NCBI GenBank assembly: GCA_001804705.1
Contig: MHAY01000056.1
Span: 1 to 56,982, forward strand
Reading direction: 5' to 3'
Length of the DNA stretch: 56,982 nt
DNA from: Ignavibacteria bacterium RIFOXYC2_FULL_35_21
GTDB taxonomy: Bacteria; Bacteroidota; Ignavibacteria; Kapaibacteriales; UBA2268
Shown: positions 12,339 to 19,788 of the stretch, in pieces
Position numbering within the stretch: the stretch's first letter is position 1
Layout: every line of letters begins with the position of its first letter
Position numbers and translations under genes: made by a program
The notes under the pieces: model-generated
The model's input: the letters and a program-made list of their open reading frames with translations, nothing else
Told to the model about the DNA's origin: nothing
Database searches by the model: none

Positions 12339-13157
12339 ATGGCTGATAAAAACAAAAATATTGACACTCTGATTGCATTGTTGAGGGATGTTAATGACTA
12401 TAACATTGCCCTCGAACAGCATTGGTACAGGATTCCCGTAAATAGTGCGCCGAGTATTGTGCATGAAAGAAGAATTAAATATATTGCTTTTTACCAGACT
12501 AAAAAATTCGGAGCTGATGCTTTCGTGGTAAGATGGTTTGCAAGAGTTAAGAAAATAAGAATAGTTCACCGCCAGGATTTGTTTGGTAAAGAAAAGAAGA
12601 ATATAAAAAGCAGGAAAATTTATTATAAACTTGAATTTGAAAAATTGAGAGAGCTTCCGAAACCCATACCAAGTTTAAGGCACAGGCCCATAATATTTGT
12701 TCAGACAACATTCAAAAAGTTTCGCACCGCAAAAGAAATAAATGACCTGTTTATTGAAAGCCCGATTGAAGAGAGGATGTGGGATGCTTTCAGGAAAGAA
12801 GAAATTAATGCTGAACGCCAGTACGAGGTGATTTATGGCAAAGGGAATAATCAAAGATATTATCTCGATTTTGCAATGTTCTGCAAATCCCGCAACCTCG
12901 CTGTCGAGTGCGATGGCGATACTTATCATTCAAAATTAGAAGATGTTAAAAAAGACAAGCACAGGGATAATATTCTCGAGAGCCAGGGTTGGAATATTTT
13001 GAGATATACAACTGATGACATCAAATATAAGATTGATAATTCAATAATGCAGGTGAAGGAAGCAATCAATAATTACGGTGGGATTGAAAAACCTAAGGGC
13101 GAATTTCAATATGTAATTACAAAACCATCAAAACAGGATAAATTATTTTATATATAG
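12339..13157 (+). CDS. DUF559 (Vsr-like PD-(D/E)XK fold) protein
   Basis: The C-terminal half (about residues 140-235) is a DUF559 domain: SPIEERMWDAF, then YYLDFAMFC, LAVECDGDTYH, and DNILESQGWNILRYTTDDI, the order of the Vsr-like endonuclease fold with the expected catalytic acids (LDF; ECDGD). The N-terminal 130 residues are not recognised; they are basic and may bind nucleic acid. DUF559 proteins are linked to DNA repair or mobile DNA but few have been tested. Monocistronic, ending 6 bp from the convergent M28 peptidase gene. Confidence 0.75.
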   Translation: MADKNKNIDTLIALLRDVNDYNIALEQHWYRIPVNSAPSIVHERRIKYIAFYQTKKFGADAFVVRWFARVKKIRIVHRQDLFGKEKKNIKSRKIYYKLEFEKLRELPKPIPSLRHRPIIFVQTTFKKFRTAKEINDLFIESPIEERMWDAFRKEEINAERQYEVIYGKGNNQRYYLDFAMFCKSRNLAVECDGDTYHSKLEDVKKDKHRDNILESQGWNILRYTTDDIKYKIDNSIMQVKEAINNYGGIEKPKGEFQYVITKPSKQDKLFYI

Positions 13158-13163
13158 AAGTTA

Positions 13164-14396
13164 TTACCTTATAACACCGAATGTTTTTGTTAAGCTTTGT
13201 CCACCACCGGAAAATCTCACAAAATAAATACACGGTGAAAGACTTCGGCAATCAAAATTGATTGTTGGATTAACTGACAATAATGAACCCTCATACAGCA
13301 CAGAAACACGGTTTCCAAGCATATCAAATATTTCCAATTTGCAGTTTCTACTATTAATTCCATTTATTGTTATGTTGATAAAATCCGAGGTTGGATTTGG
13401 GAAAATTGAAATATTGTCAGATATAATTACAATATCATTTACACTGTTTGGCTTATAATCATAAGCATAATTCATAACAAGAGCCAAAGCAAGTTTAGTA
13501 TTATTTAAAAAATATTGTTGATTAAAATATTTGACCAAATCATGTTCCGAATGGTATAATGACATATCGTCCAGCATATCGGCAAGTCCGATTGCTGAGA
13601 ATCCATTATGCCAAAAATAGTCGGCATCACCCGAAAACCCGATGTAACTACCTTTGATGGTTTTTATTTCAGGTATCAGTGAAATATTATGTAACAAGCA
13701 AATATTAATAGCTTCTTCAGCAAAATTTAAAGATTGAGCTACTTTTACATATTTAATTCTAACCAAACCGTCATTATCCATATCCCATCCAAGCATATCA
13801 AGATTAATGTATAATTTGATTTTTTCACTATTTTTTTTTGCCAAATTTGCATAATAACCACTGCCTACCGTTCCAAATTCTTCTTCATCCCAGAAAATAA
13901 ATTTAAGATTGTATTGAGGTTTATAATTCCTTATTAACCTCGCAATTTCAATAATCGCAGCACAGCCACTTGCATTATCATTTGCACCGGGAGATAGATA
14001 CTTTGTTTGCCCGTTGCCATCTTCAAAACATTCAGAATCAAAATGGGCTCCTATTATAACAATACTATCCTGGTATAGTGTTCCATCCATTTCCCACATT
14101 ATATTTTTACAAGTAGCAGAACATGTCTGATAATTCGTTTTGTATCCTAATTCTCTGCCCTTAGCATACAAATATTTTTCAGCAAGTTGATTACCTGCCG
14201 TATTGTACTTTCTTTTGCTAATTAAAGTATCCCTACCATCAATTTTAACAATTTGTTCGCCCGACAAATCCTTGACAGTATAAATAAGAGAGTCAATTGA
14301 AACAGAATCAATGAGGGTATTATCTATGGTATAAGAGAACAATGTTGGAAATTCTATAATGAACAAACAAAAAGAGATAATTATTCGGTTTATCAC
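13164..14396 (-). CDS. M28 family zinc aminopeptidase-like protein with T9SS sorting domain
   Basis: A secreted peptidase: signal peptide (1-22), then an M28 domain with all metal ligands visible: GAHFDS (His118), PGANDNASG (Asp140), WDEEEFG (Glu171/172), NLDMLGWD (Asp200) and a late His in YHSEHD. M28 enzymes are two-zinc exopeptidases. The last 75 residues, starting ISIFPNPTSDFINI and ending YFVRFSGGGQSLTKTFGVIR, form a type A T9SS sorting domain, so the enzyme should reach the cell surface. Start is GTG; no nearer ATG fits the signal peptide. Confidence 0.88.
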   Translation of the reverse strand: MINRIIISFCLFIIEFPTLFSYTIDNTLIDSVSIDSLIYTVKDLSGEQIVKIDGRDTLISKRKYNTAGNQLAEKYLYAKGRELGYKTNYQTCSATCKNIMWEMDGTLYQDSIVIIGAHFDSECFEDGNGQTKYLSPGANDNASGCAAIIEIARLIRNYKPQYNLKFIFWDEEEFGTVGSGYYANLAKKNSEKIKLYINLDMLGWDMDNDGLVRIKYVKVAQSLNFAEEAINICLLHNISLIPEIKTIKGSYIGFSGDADYFWHNGFSAIGLADMLDDMSLYHSEHDLVKYFNQQYFLNNTKLALALVMNYAYDYKPNSVNDIVIISDNISIFPNPTSDFINITINGINSRNCKLEIFDMLGNRVSVLYEGSLLSVNPTINFDCRSLSPCIYFVRFSGGGQSLTKTFGVIR

Positions 14397-14611
14397 TTTA
14401 GCCCCCTTTTTAAAATTTAAACAAATGTCTCTTTATTTAATACCTAAGACAATGTAATTTATTAAAAAGTTACAAGAACGATAGATGAAAAAAAGAAATA
14501 TTATTTAAATAATGAATCTAGAATTTTATGAACTTCATAACTTCATTTCTATATTTCAGAAAATATATTCCGGATGAAAGATTTGTAAAACCAATACAAA
14601 TTTGTTGGATT

Positions 14612-15547
14612 TTAATAAATACTCATATCCTGAGCTGAGATTACATTTCCATTCCATTTTGTTTTTATTTGGTTGAGCAAATCATTATCCGAATCACCCC
14701 AATAAAGCTGATGATAGAGCAACAGTAAAGAGGGATTTATTTGCGAAGCTATTTCACCCAATTCATAAGTCGAGGTATGATATTGGGGATGGTACTTCTG
14801 CCATTTTGCTTCCCTTGTCTTCAGTTTTTCAGCCGAATAAACCTCGTGAATTAATATATCGGCTCCTTTGCCCTTTTCAATTAATTTTTTGTTAGGCCTG
14901 CAATCGCCCGATATAACAATTCGCTTGTCTGGAGTAATAACCAGAAAGCCATAAGATTCTTCCCAGTTCCCATGTTCTACCTGAAAAGCTTCGACTGTAA
15001 TATTACTATCTTTATAAAATACTCCTTCTTTAAATTCAGTTACATTAACTCTCCAGCCTCTGTCATTTGCCTGTTCAAGACCATGAAGACGAACATTAAT
15101 ATCTTCGTCGTAAGCTTCGAGTATATTATTAGTCATAGATTTCAAGCCTGTAGGCCCATAAGCTTCAAGCGGAACATCACGCCCCATTACCCATGGAGTA
15201 AAAATCAGGTCGGGATAGCCGACAGTATGGTCGGAATGAAGATGGGTAATGAACACATGATTTAAATTCTTTACATCAAATCCTTTAAATTTCCCCCCAT
15301 ATTTTGGATTTAATTTTGAAGCATTTCTAACTAAACCGGGACCACAATCGAATATATACGGTGTATTGTTAATCAACAAAAGAACCGAAATACCCGAATG
15401 CTCCGGGTCCGGATTAGGAGTGCCTGTTCCGAGAAAAATAATTTTTGTTATTTCAGAAGGGACATAATCTTTTGCATTAAACTGATAATATCCACCTAAG
15501 ATGATAATTAATAAAATAATTAATCTACTTATAAATGGAATTTTCAT
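14612..15547 (-). CDS. Metallo-beta-lactamase-fold hydrolase (RNase Z/arylsulfatase-like), membrane-anchored or exported
   Basis: An N-terminal hydrophobic segment (residues 8-22) is followed by an MBL domain with ITHLHSDH, the metal-binding HxHxDH motif, then a later His (VEHGNW), ISGDCRPN and LLYHQLYW as further ligands. The start IIFLGTGTPNPDPEHSG matches the RNase Z/AtsA-type branch. An exported location argues against tRNA processing and for hydrolysis of a small ester. The substrate is unknown. It stands next to the restriction-modification genes but shares no obvious function. Confidence 0.8.
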   Translation of the reverse strand: MKIPFISRLIILLIIILGGYYQFNAKDYVPSEITKIIFLGTGTPNPDPEHSGISVLLLINNTPYIFDCGPGLVRNASKLNPKYGGKFKGFDVKNLNHVFITHLHSDHTVGYPDLIFTPWVMGRDVPLEAYGPTGLKSMTNNILEAYDEDINVRLHGLEQANDRGWRVNVTEFKEGVFYKDSNITVEAFQVEHGNWEESYGFLVITPDKRIVISGDCRPNKKLIEKGKGADILIHEVYSAEKLKTREAKWQKYHPQYHTSTYELGEIASQINPSLLLLYHQLYWGDSDNDLLNQIKTKWNGNVISAQDMSIY

Positions 15548-15605
15548 ATCACTACCATGAATATTACAAAATTATTTTTAAGAATTATTTTAACAAGAAA
15601 CAGAA

Positions 15606-16424
15606 TTATTTTTTAACCATTTCTTTTAATAAACCTATAATTCTTAATGATGTTTTTGCTATATCAATCATGATTGGAAGCATTTCATTTTCTTTCCAAG
15701 TTGTAGCTTTGGTATAAATTGACACAGCCTGAAGCATGACCAATTGGCTTTTTATAGAAATAAAAATATTTTCACAACTATTTTGATTTATCTGCAAACT
15801 ATAATTAGCAGCAGTTAATCGATCAATTCTATTTAATGATCCAGCATCATGTCTTAAATCTACTACCCTACCATCAGGACGTCGAACAGAAACTGTTTCA
15901 GTGATGAAATTTGATCCTTGTAAAAATAAGACATATGGGAAATGTTTCTCATCAACCATAATATTTCTTATTTCATTTATATTTTTGTGAGAACGTTCAA
16001 TGGCATTTCCAGCAACCATTATGTCTTGATCCTTATTTTTCCCAACTAAAATACCCTGACTAATATTTTCTATATCTTTTCCTTGATATTTCGCTTCAGA
16101 AACTAATACAATTCTCCAATTGTTCTTCTTGTCTTTAACCTCAATAATACCACCATCGGGTTTTATTGCTGATTTTTCGACGAAAATTGTGACACCTAAA
16201 CGGTTATCAACCTTGTTGAGTTTTTTATTAATTTCTTTTTTTCCAATTTGGTCTCTATATCGAAATTCTAATTTAGGAAATTCATTTTGTAAAGCTTCAA
16301 AAGCATGTTTTGAAACATCTTTTACTGAAACATCGTGTTGCTGTGCAGAAATACCAAATATACCCTTAGGGCCTTGGCTTTTCACATGCTGCTTAGTTAA
16401 TCTATCTGTTTGTGTTTTTTTCAT
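15606..16424 (-). CDS. Type II restriction endonuclease, EcoRI/RsrI family (predicted GAATTC)
   Basis: The 272 residues align with EcoRI from residue 1 to about 209 without a gap, offset by one. Catalytic residues are present: Asp90 (KPDGGI), Glu110 and Lys112 (SEAKYQG), matching EcoRI Asp91, Glu111 and Lys113. Base-contact residues are also kept: Met136, Asn140, Ala141, Arg144 (MVAGNAIERSHKN) and Arg199, Arg202 (NRIDRLTAANY). The protein differs at EcoRI positions 114 (His to Tyr), 138 (Ala to Val), 192 (Glu to Arg) and 193 (Tyr to His), where EcoRI mutants are known for relaxed specificity. It follows its methyltransferase gene after 16 bp. Confidence 0.95.
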   Translation of the reverse strand: MKKTQTDRLTKQHVKSQGPKGIFGISAQQHDVSVKDVSKHAFEALQNEFPKLEFRYRDQIGKKEINKKLNKVDNRLGVTIFVEKSAIKPDGGIIEVKDKKNNWRIVLVSEAKYQGKDIENISQGILVGKNKDQDIMVAGNAIERSHKNINEIRNIMVDEKHFPYVLFLQGSNFITETVSVRRPDGRVVDLRHDAGSLNRIDRLTAANYSLQINQNSCENIFISIKSQLVMLQAVSIYTKATTWKENEMLPIMIDIAKTSLRIIGLLKEMVKK

Positions 16425-16440
16425 CAGGAGACTATTACAT

Positions 16441-17388
16441 TCAATTAATCAATTTTGCAAATGAATTAAATACCTCCCCCACAGTAATGTTCTTCAAAAT
16501 AGTGTAAGGCTTAACGAAAAAATTCCCTTCAATTTGAGAAAGATGTAACTTTAAATAATCATTAAGCTTAGGGTCAATATCTACAAGAATAGAATTTCTT
16601 GCTTCTTCGATACAGACACGACCAGTGGTGCCTGAACCAGCAAAAAAATCTAAAACCGTAGAGCCTGGATATGATAATCCACGGATGAATCTTCGTATAA
16701 TTTCTACGGGTTTTTGAGTAGGATGCCCAACTCTTTCTTTAGAATTGCCATTAAGCCTGTTGAACTCCCAAACGTTTGTTGGATTTTTTCCTTTATCGAT
16801 ACTTCTCGGATTTAAACGTTTATCTTTTTTATAAAGTATTTTAGTTTCATCATCGAATGGAATTCTAACAGAATCAAGATTAAAATAATACTTTTCAGTT
16901 TTGGACAGCCAAATTGCTTCTTCATGTCTATTGGCAAAAAAACGATGCGCACTCATTCCATTTTTATAATACCAAATTATTAGATTTACAAAGCGAAGAT
17001 GTGTTGAATGTCTTGTATAGTGCAGTATTTCTAGTAAATCACCTTTCTTAAGATCTTGATATTGGAATCCACCAAAAATAATGCAATTTCCTGAGTTCGA
17101 TAAAATTCTGTAAATTTCATCTACCCATGTCTTTGCCCATTTTAGGTAGTTTTCAAATGTATCCCAATAATCTAGATCTAAATTATATGGTGGGTCAATT
17201 AAGACTAGTTGTATTGAAGAGTCCGGTATTTGTCGTAATACTTCAACGGCGTCATTGATAAATATCGCATGAATTGTCTTTTCCACTTTATGCAGGTTAA
17301 AATCAATATCAGAACTGTGTCGAACTCCATTTTTCCTCTGGATGTTTATGGCGATATGGCCTTTGTTGAAATGAGATTTATTCGGCAT
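16441..17388 (-). CDS. Adenine-N6 DNA methyltransferase, M.RsrI-like (predicted GAATTC)
   Basis: A beta-class methyltransferase: the catalytic motif DPPY (residues 65-68) precedes the S-adenosylmethionine motif DFFAGSGTTG (about 247-256). It matches M.RsrI along its length, with the shared blocks KSHFNKGH at the start, NGMSAHRFFANRHEEAIW, KDKRLNP, KNPTNVWEFNRLNGNS and RVGHPTQKP. M.RsrI methylates the second adenine of GAATTC, so this enzyme should protect host DNA from the endonuclease just downstream. Methyltransferase first, endonuclease second is the RsrI order and favours protection on entry into a new host. No controller (C) protein gene is seen. Confidence 0.93.
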   Translation of the reverse strand: MPNKSHFNKGHIAINIQRKNGVRHSSDIDFNLHKVEKTIHAIFINDAVEVLRQIPDSSIQLVLIDPPYNLDLDYWDTFENYLKWAKTWVDEIYRILSNSGNCIIFGGFQYQDLKKGDLLEILHYTRHSTHLRFVNLIIWYYKNGMSAHRFFANRHEEAIWLSKTEKYYFNLDSVRIPFDDETKILYKKDKRLNPRSIDKGKNPTNVWEFNRLNGNSKERVGHPTQKPVEIIRRFIRGLSYPGSTVLDFFAGSGTTGRVCIEEARNSILVDIDPKLNDYLKLHLSQIEGNFFVKPYTILKNITVGEVFNSFAKLIN

Positions 17389-17616
17389 TTTACCAACTCA
17401 TATTTCTTTTTAATATAAATAATTTAGTTATTTGAACAGTCTGTTTTTTTTATAATCAAGAATAATTGGTAACTCTTTTATATGCAATATACTAATTTTT
17501 TTTTTTAAATTTTAATATATATATCATGTATAGTTAACCAAAAAATGGATTATTTATGATCGAAAGTAAAAAATGAAATACTCCGAAAAATATAATATTT
17601 CATATAAACTTTATCA

Positions 17617-19788
17617 TTACCTCACAACCATGAACTTCTGAATTGAATTTTTAATTTTTAAAAAGTAAATACCATTTTCAAGATTTGAAACTTCAATGCT
17701 ATGTCCTGAATTGATTGCTCCATGCCATAAGCTTATCCCAAGAGTATTGATTATCTCTGCTTCACCTTCTAAACCTGAAACGATGAGATAATCCGAAGCG
17801 GGATTCGGATATAAGACGAATACCGGATTTAAAACAAAATCTTCTCCGACAGATGTTGATGGTTTTTTCAAAAACCATGGGATGGCAGTCGAATCTGTTT
17901 TCAGAAAATCCAGTAAGAGATTAGCCACTTTCGTGCGTCCACTTGGGGAAGGATGAGTGCCGTCATTGACAAAGTCAGCACGAATCCAAAACAATCCGTC
18001 AGCCTCTCTTGGCTTTTCACCTTGTGCCCAGAGATAAGGTCCCCACGAAAGCCAGGGTGATTTTGGATTTGTTCCCGAATAACTTATAGCAGTATCTCCG
18101 TTGATTTGTTCTTCGAGCAGCCACTTGACTGAGAATCCCGTTTCGTAGGCATAAGGCTCAGGATTAAGTTGTGTGGTTGCGTAGCCGCCATAAGTACGGC
18201 TCGATAAATACGCAATTTTTATGTTCACATATTTTTGTTTCAATATTTTTACTATAGCTTTCAGTTCTCTTTGAAGTGTTTGTGCATGAACAGGGAAAGC
18301 ATCCTTTGGCTGGGCATCTGCTTCCTTTAACCAAACAACCTGAACCTGTTCAGGTTTCAATCCCGCATTGTAAAGTCTTGTTTCGATAATATTCCAGAAT
18401 GTTGCCGATGAATTTGATATTACAACTGCTGTCTGTCCGCTCTGAGCTCCGTCAATGATTGTACATCTCGGATTCTTCATAGTATCAATATCTGCAATTT
18501 GTTTGAATGTAGAAAATTCCTGTGTGCAATTCGACATACCTACAGACAGTAAAACTATCTTCCCGTTTGGGTCGGTATTACCTAATGTGTTCAATGGAAG
18601 GATGCTATTTCCAATTTGAATACCGTCAGAATTATGTTGTACAGGTCTTTCATTCATACCATTCGGATAAAGCCCTCCTTCAAAGTTCTTCCATTTGCCA
18701 GTTCCGAGTTCTGTAAGAGGTAACGTATCATTCTCAACTGTATCAATTTTTACCGGCAGGTGAATGTAGCGAGGGTCATGCATCTCCTCGCGGTATTTTT
18801 GAGTAACATAAGCATTTTTCTCAATTCTCGAATCTCCCCAGTTGGCATAAGCACCTGGGGGCCAATTAGCATCAATGTAACTGAATCCCTTTATTTCTGT
18901 GTGAGTCTCAATAAATTCCCAAAACTTCGCAAACCAGTTATTCCAGTCATTGACACCATCTGTGCTGTCAGCACTTATGTTCATCCCCTGTGCTGAAGAC
19001 TCGCTCATATATACAGGCTTGCCTTTACTTCTTGCCATTTGAAGAAATCTTTCTGATTTTCCCTTTCTCGTAATCTGCCCTCTGTCAAAATCAGGTAAAG
19101 ATGCATCGAAATGATTGGGATGGAAAACATCCAAACCGAACCAGTCTGCATACTCATCGCCGGGATACCACCTTGCACCTCTTGCATCAACCGAATCGAA
19201 ATCATTGGGTGCATCAGGCTCGTAGCACCAAATAAGAGCAATAGAATCCCTGAAACCACGTGATTCAAACATATCGGAGATTTTCTTGTACATTTTTACA
19301 TATTCGTAAGGATGATATCCGCCTCCGTTCCATCCTGGGCCCGCACCATTGAATTCACCTCCTATACGGAGAAACATTCTCTTTCCATAATTCTTAGATA
19401 ATGTAATTATACTGTCAATTATATTATCATATTGAGTGCTATTTGCGATAATGCTGTCAGTGGCAACATCACTAACAAGGAACAAACTTAATTCAGGGAA
19501 AAAGCCAACAGAGTCTGCTGAATGATAAAAATTAGCTAATCCTTTATATGATTGTGCAGGTCCGCGAGTTCCGGGAATACTAAAGAAAAATCCGCGAACA
19601 GCCGGTTGAATTGTAGAATCAAACAATGCTTTTGTCAGATATCCTTCGAGAGGGTCCTGTGTAGTCTCATAGGTCATCAGCTGGGCACCGTGATAAACTC
19701 TTCCGTCGGGTGGCTCGAACTTCGCATCGGCAGCGCAAAGGTTTGTTGAAATAATGAACAGCAAACAAATTTGTAGTATCTTTTTCAT
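17617..19788 (-). CDS. Secreted GH26-like glycosidase fused to an SGNH-like domain, T9SS sorted
   Basis: Four parts: signal peptide (1-19); a TIM-barrel domain (about 30-345) like family 26 glycoside hydrolases, with likely acid/base Glu145 in LRIGGEFNG and nucleophile Glu263 in PVYMSESSAQG; a second domain (about 390-640) with features of SGNH hydrolases or esterases, a first block VLLSVGMSN and a last block NDGTHPSPSG containing the Asp-x-x-His pair; and a T9SS type A sorting domain (about 655-723, starting YPNPASDY). GH26 enzymes mostly cut beta-mannans. The pairing suggests an enzyme that acts on an acylated polysaccharide at the cell surface. Substrate and SGNH activity are inference. 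Confidence 0.75.
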   Translation of the reverse strand: MKKILQICLLFIISTNLCAADAKFEPPDGRVYHGAQLMTYETTQDPLEGYLTKALFDSTIQPAVRGFFFSIPGTRGPAQSYKGLANFYHSADSVGFFPELSLFLVSDVATDSIIANSTQYDNIIDSIITLSKNYGKRMFLRIGGEFNGAGPGWNGGGYHPYEYVKMYKKISDMFESRGFRDSIALIWCYEPDAPNDFDSVDARGARWYPGDEYADWFGLDVFHPNHFDASLPDFDRGQITRKGKSERFLQMARSKGKPVYMSESSAQGMNISADSTDGVNDWNNWFAKFWEFIETHTEIKGFSYIDANWPPGAYANWGDSRIEKNAYVTQKYREEMHDPRYIHLPVKIDTVENDTLPLTELGTGKWKNFEGGLYPNGMNERPVQHNSDGIQIGNSILPLNTLGNTDPNGKIVLLSVGMSNCTQEFSTFKQIADIDTMKNPRCTIIDGAQSGQTAVVISNSSATFWNIIETRLYNAGLKPEQVQVVWLKEADAQPKDAFPVHAQTLQRELKAIVKILKQKYVNIKIAYLSSRTYGGYATTQLNPEPYAYETGFSVKWLLEEQINGDTAISYSGTNPKSPWLSWGPYLWAQGEKPREADGLFWIRADFVNDGTHPSPSGRTKVANLLLDFLKTDSTAIPWFLKKPSTSVGEDFVLNPVFVLYPNPASDYLIVSGLEGEAEIINTLGISLWHGAINSGHSIEVSNLENGIYFLKIKNSIQKFMVVR

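Follow-up and report, generated by a model that had tools for sequence, protein, structure and literature searches.

EcoRI is the textbook example of an enzyme that discriminates extremely well between sequences, and it has been reported to become looser when position 114 or 138 alone is changed. The window, i.e., the whole 56,982-nucleotide stretch of contig MHAY01000056.1 from Ignavibacteria bacterium RIFOXYC2_FULL_35_21 (assembly GCA_001804705.1; 4.15 Mb in 105 contigs), encodes an EcoRI homolog that differs from EcoRI at positions 114, 138, 192, and 193, which raises the question of whether this nuclease is naturally relaxed or still specific for GAATTC. We consider it likely that the locus is an ordinary two-gene Type IIP GAATTC system in which the recognition surface has been re-balanced.

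The nuclease and its four altered positions

The nuclease gene starts with ATG and has an open, full-length frame (Table 1). The protein matches the EcoRI family profile PF02963 with 402 bits (cut-off, 22) over profile positions 1–251 of 257, and EcoRI chains in the PDB match it with an E-value of about 5e-101. When aligned with EcoRI of an E. coli plasmid, 160 of 272 positions are identical (59% identity). There are no gaps or insertions over EcoRI residues 4–239; a first-pass annotation of the sequence had rightly called the alignment gap-free and had been too cautious in ending it at about residue 209. As that annotation also stated, the catalytic residues Asp91, Glu111, and Lys113 and the base-contact residues Met137, Asn141, Ala142, Arg145, Arg200, and Arg203 are kept, and so are Gln115 and Glu144. 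EcoRI numbering here counts Met as residue 1 (PDB entry 2OXV then has Thr138), and the residue number in the window protein is the EcoRI number minus 1. A predicted model of the nuclease (pLDDT 81, from a 16-row alignment) matches EcoRI–DNA complexes with Z-scores of 27.5 to 27.8 (2OXV: Z 27.8, rmsd 2.5, 238 residues), and the next family in this fold comparison is SgrAI, with Z 8.9. The protein is a full-length EcoRI-family endonuclease, with the catalytic and contact residues and the predicted fold of EcoRI (1CKQ and 1ERI; A138T mutant, 2OXV). The family has one copy in the window's genome and none in the 14 control genomes.

Table 1. Coordinates in the window of the two genes and of the codons at the four altered positions
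Feature	Coordinates	Strand	Basis
EcoRI-family Type II restriction endonuclease, 272 aa	15606–16424	-	ORF, Pfam, EcoRI alignment, model
Codon, Tyr at EcoRI position 114	16086–16088	-	Alignment
Codon, Val at EcoRI position 138	16014–16016	-	Alignment
Codon, Arg at EcoRI position 192	15852–15854	-	Alignment
Codon, His at EcoRI position 193	15849–15851	-	Alignment
M.RsrI-type (beta class) adenine DNA methyltransferase, 315 aa	16441–17388	-	ORF, PF01555, M.RsrI match

Both the alignment and the codons bear out the four residues listed in the first-pass annotation, i.e., Tyr114, Val138, Arg192, and His193, and residue 197 differs from EcoRI as well. Since 112 of the 272 positions differ from EcoRI, four given positions would all differ by chance with a probability of about 3%, rate differences being ignored. 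The accessible text of PMC11755562 describes EcoRI A138T as promiscuous, with star cutting raised at AAATTC, and the title of 2OXV names an A138T promiscuous mutant of EcoRI, both in agreement with the earlier description of A138T as a relaxed mutant. H114Y, described earlier as a star mutant, is indeed named in the same accessible text, which uses it, together with saturation mutagenesis, to assign His114 a role in recognition and catalysis of EcoRI. These are laboratory single mutants of EcoRI, whereas the window nuclease is a naturally divergent background; it has the residue of H114Y at position 114, and its position 138 is also changed, but to Val. Positions 192 and 193 are presumably relaxed-specificity sites of EcoRI as well (E192K; a Tyr193 mutant); among the accessible papers, none pairs EcoRI with E192K or with Y193H.

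A naturally relaxed nuclease would cut GAATTC plus one-base variants (likeliest AAATTC) in the cell, with a methyltransferase that protects this wider set. Tyr114 is consistent with this explanation, and so is Val138, a beta-branched residue similar to the Thr of the mutant that is promiscuous at AAATTC. A natural precedent for star activity is LraI from Lactococcus raffinolactis, an EcoRI-like isoschizomer; according to the accessible part of PMC5896346, its site at normal salt is G/AATTC, and at low salt AAATTC is cut in addition. LraI was compared with the window nuclease by described activity and neither supports nor refutes a role of the four residues. Given mainly the partners of its relatives, described later, we nevertheless think that the window nuclease is unlikely to be relaxed.

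A clade with its own residues at positions 138, 192, and 193

Relatives were taken from the best 80 of 274 genome matches, nine plasmid or phage loci, matches in the searched genomes, and 11 viral contigs. The viral relatives were found using alignment A2, and none with the window protein alone as query; the plasmid/phage search matched 19 plasmid records and one phage record. Dropped before counting were a 31% partial match (L009), six fragments, overlaps, or matches below the cut-off (L015, L016, L017, L107, L112, and L113), and L001 and L098–L106, which are the window itself or duplicate loci already collected. L012, L013, and L109 were kept though their genes look broken or frameshifted, and the near or exact copies L074/L094, L144/L145, and L011/L049 were each counted as a row. 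The residue table has 108 rows and the tree 106, without L153 and L154 (35%, partial). The tree is a single “quick” tree with many weak branches, midpoint-rooted, its root not being inferred. EcoRI-family genes were found in two of 369 genomes of the class to which a PS1-clade MAG among the relatives (L081) belongs, which we take to be Alphaproteobacteria.

Across the 108 rows, the most frequent residues are His at position 114 (90 rows; Tyr, nine), Ala at 138 (66; Val, 27), Glu at 192 (52; Lys, 24; Arg, six), and Tyr at 193 (74; His, 25). Two rows have the Thr of the A138T mutant at position 138 by nature, L041 and L013, the latter from a gene that looks broken. The minimum number of changes on the tree is 10 for position 114, 21 for 138, 24 for 192, and 10 for 193, and the column entropies lie at the 49th, 73rd, 89th, and 63rd percentile, respectively.

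The window nuclease falls in a 20-row branch (SH-aLRT 95). Together with a viral-contig row (L147), joined to it by residues and 69% identity, this branch makes up the 21-row clade considered here, in which His193 and Lys/Arg192 are found in all 21 rows, Val138 in 16, and Tyr114 in two. At three of the four positions, the window nuclease has what is normal for its clade, not an odd stack of its own. The identical four-residue set is found in one other row of the 108, a Planctomycetaceae MAG (L040) outside the clade. As 49 of the 272 columns set the clade apart from the 81 other rows, the four positions appear to belong to a broad divergence, and 138, 192, and 193 are, as judged from the alignment, part of it. 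The first-pass annotation had offered two readings, a re-balanced network that keeps specificity and broader cutting; in view of these clade norms at three positions, the former fits better, and the latter has gained no positive evidence. According to the former, the recognition scaffold of this divergent branch would have changed at 138, 192, and 193 along with much else, and substitutions that loosen EcoRI itself would leave discrimination intact in the clade background. The clade residues at these three positions thus probably do not make the nuclease careless.

Asp91, Glu111, Lys113, Gln115, Met137, Asn141, Ala142, Glu144, Arg145, Arg200, and Arg203 are invariant in all 21 clade rows, and this invariance of the base-contact residues argues against a clade that reads a different specific site, with a changed outer base pair and methyltransferases that followed. 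A different site would accord with the 49 distinguishing columns and with position 197, which is Ser or Thr in 21/21 clade rows versus Met in 50 of the 81 others and which a reference title in PMC11755562 ties to recognition by EcoRI. In its accessible text, however, the same paper describes I197 as having no role in specific recognition, and the partners of the clade nucleases are of the M.RsrI and M.EcoRI types. We regard a changed site as quite improbable.

The first-pass annotation had proposed to check whether the four positions co-vary, and this was borne out for one pair. Val138 occurs with Glu or Asp192 in 0 of 27 rows, and a Pagel test of Val138 versus acidic 192 gave p = 0.006 with all 106 rows of the tree and p = 0.02 with the 85 rows left when the clade was dropped; for non-Ala138 versus acidic 192, the values were p = 0.015 and, with the clade dropped, p = 0.029. 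The other pairs were not significant in this test, with p = 0.13 for Val138 with His193, p = 0.11 for acidic 192 with non-Tyr193, and p = 0.36 for Tyr114 with Val138. The p values are from seven tests run with a purpose-written script on the quick tree and are uncorrected. Co-variation tests on independent pairs had too few pairs and no power. Hence, a mutual adjustment of 138 and 192 has moderate support, and nothing indicates that 114 is part of the coupled set.

Near the base of the midpoint-rooted tree, L037, L039, and L040 also have Val138 and Lys/Arg192. With the root not inferred, the Ala/Glu/Tyr set of EcoRI itself might be the derived one.

Methyltransferase partners

The methyltransferase gene lies 16 bases upstream of the nuclease gene on the same strand. 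Its product has a DPPY motif before an FAGSG motif (beta class) and matches N6_N4_Mtase (PF01555) with 187.6 bits. The best solved relative is M.RsrI (E 1.4e-105; 356 bits, residues 1–289; next, 128). Based on these matches, the adjacent methyltransferase is of the GAATTC type; it is M.RsrI-type (beta) and not M.EcoRI-type (gamma). A plasmid search with the methyltransferase returned one record, an Acinetobacter plasmid already among the relatives.

The EcoRI system has a gamma, M.EcoRI-type partner, whereas the window has a beta, M.RsrI-type partner whose gene precedes that of the nuclease. The RsrI system of Rhodobacter sphaeroides is like the window in combining an EcoRI-type nuclease with an M.RsrI-type methyltransferase, a likeness judged from the methyltransferase; no sequence of the RsrI nuclease was present among the matched plasmid/phage records or the best 80 of 274 genome loci. 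According to the accessible parts of the respective papers, RsrI cuts G/AATTC as an isoschizomer of EcoRI and shares about 50% identity with it (PMC4081073), the RsrI system with M.RsrI serves GAATTC (PMC11473606), and M.EcoRI modifies GA(m6A)TTC (PMC3646050). In the ordinary GAATTC system that we favor for the window, the M.RsrI-type enzyme would methylate an adenine in GAATTC, and the EcoRI-type nuclease would act as a dimer and cut unmethylated G/AATTC.

Within the clade, the partner is beta, M.RsrI-type in four of 21 rows and gamma, M.EcoRI-type in 17. The four beta rows (L020, the window, L018, and L019) branch outside an all-gamma 16-row sub-branch (SH-aLRT 100). The gamma gene lies upstream of the nuclease gene in 17/17 clade loci and downstream in all 60 other loci that have one plus-strand gamma gene, and these opposite sides suggest that the gamma partner of the clade was acquired in a separate event. 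With two unrelated partner classes in the clade, both with GAATTC as the prototype site, exchange would be easiest if the nuclease still cuts GAATTC, and a nuclease with a widened site would hardly survive capture of an ordinary GAATTC methyltransferase. This argues against a relaxed window nuclease, as residues that are clade-wide would have required widening of both unrelated methyltransferase classes.

The outcome would be different if both classes already cover such sites, in which case a naturally relaxed clade (His193, Lys/Arg192, and mostly Val138) could have been tolerated across phyla, with the Tyr114-bearing window nuclease among its most relaxed members. Some star sites might be protected by a methyltransferase of the GAATTC type. 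The accessible text of PMC3646050 cites older reports that M.EcoRI methylates off-site at high dose, and the paper's own assay showed no M.EcoRI star activity and a fidelity index of at least 16. M.CjeNI, considered here for its site, was first reported to recognize GAATTC and later found to recognize RAATTY, as stated in the accessible part of PMC3526280. In Prevotella intermedia, according to the accessible part of PMC5608340, a nuclease gene has an M.EcoRI-like gene on its upstream side and no GAATTC methylation was seen; the authors consider the enzyme inactive. The accessible parts of PMC5608340, PMC10287943, PMC3526280, and PMC11473606 contained no clade member with a known methylation motif. 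We give such clade-wide relaxation little credence, slightly less than relaxation of the window nuclease.

This natural clade has residues other than those of EcoRI as its normal state at 138, 192, and 193, next to GAATTC-type methyltransferases. If the clade enzymes are strict, they are ready material for finding background residues that restore specificity; otherwise, the customary annotation of such systems as GAATTC would be wrong for a whole branch.

Some loci have unusual partners. In L042 (3024–5820), a single EcoRI-type nuclease gene lies between an upstream M.RsrI-type gene and a downstream M.EcoRI-type gene, perhaps a transitional stage in the exchange of partners. Both methyltransferase types are also present in L051, L074, and L094, where the beta gene is located farther upstream. 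The gamma methyltransferases of L026, L029, L032, L034, and L147 share a very long stem (1.57 changes per column), and the nucleases of these loci are still 69 to 74% identical to that of the window. The specificity of these methyltransferases may have shifted.

Sites and surroundings in the host genome

For GAATTC, the observed/expected ratio (O/E) is 0.58 in a sample of about 241 kb from the window's genome. Two same-genus genomes that lack the EcoRI family gave 0.58 (157 kb) and 0.64 (99 kb); avoidance of GAATTC in the host is no stronger than in these genomes and thus not specific to the nuclease. AAATTC is not avoided, with an O/E of 1.10 in the host sample and 1.00 and 1.09 in the two same-genus genomes. 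The host value counts at most weakly against a nuclease that cuts AAATTC in the cell, since avoidance of GAATTC in the host is not specific either.

Other sites are depleted in the sample of the window's genome. GTCGAC was seen 0 times versus 36.5 expected (strands counted together), and its O/E is also 0 in the same-genus genome G002; strong avoidance is also seen for GTATAC, ATCGAT, and CAGCTG. The depletion of these four sites may reflect the action of other restriction systems.

A search of three same-genus genomes found no EcoRI-family member. In the window (13164–19788), the restriction–modification pair is located between a glycosidase-like and a metallo-hydrolase gene, with a peptidase-like gene beyond the hydrolase, and in G003, of the same genus, the peptidase-like gene stands between the glycosidase-like and metallo-hydrolase genes, and there is no such pair. 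The metallo-hydrolase call is based on Pfam, and the glycosidase and peptidase labels on reading of the sequences. Hence, in this small sample of three same-genus genomes, the pair is lineage-specific, and it lies in a rearranged spot. Its absence there and from the matching spot in G003 indicates that the pair is dispensable, as would be expected if the nuclease were inactive and the four changes reflected drift in a decaying gene. The full-length open frame, the kept catalytic residues, and the sharing of the residues with the clade make a decaying gene highly improbable.

A DUF559/MTES_1575 endonuclease-like protein is encoded a few genes from the pair (12339–13157, plus strand). Among the phage and plasmid loci, Helicobacter phage Pt11509_1 (L010, 3028–4443) carries a shortened EcoRI-type nuclease gene (156 aa), adjoined by an M.EcoRI-type gene annotated in two pieces. 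On the Paracoccus marcusii plasmid of L009 (2260–2976), the gene of a distant EcoRI-family nuclease (31% identity across half of the query) lies next to that of a DNA adenine methylase.
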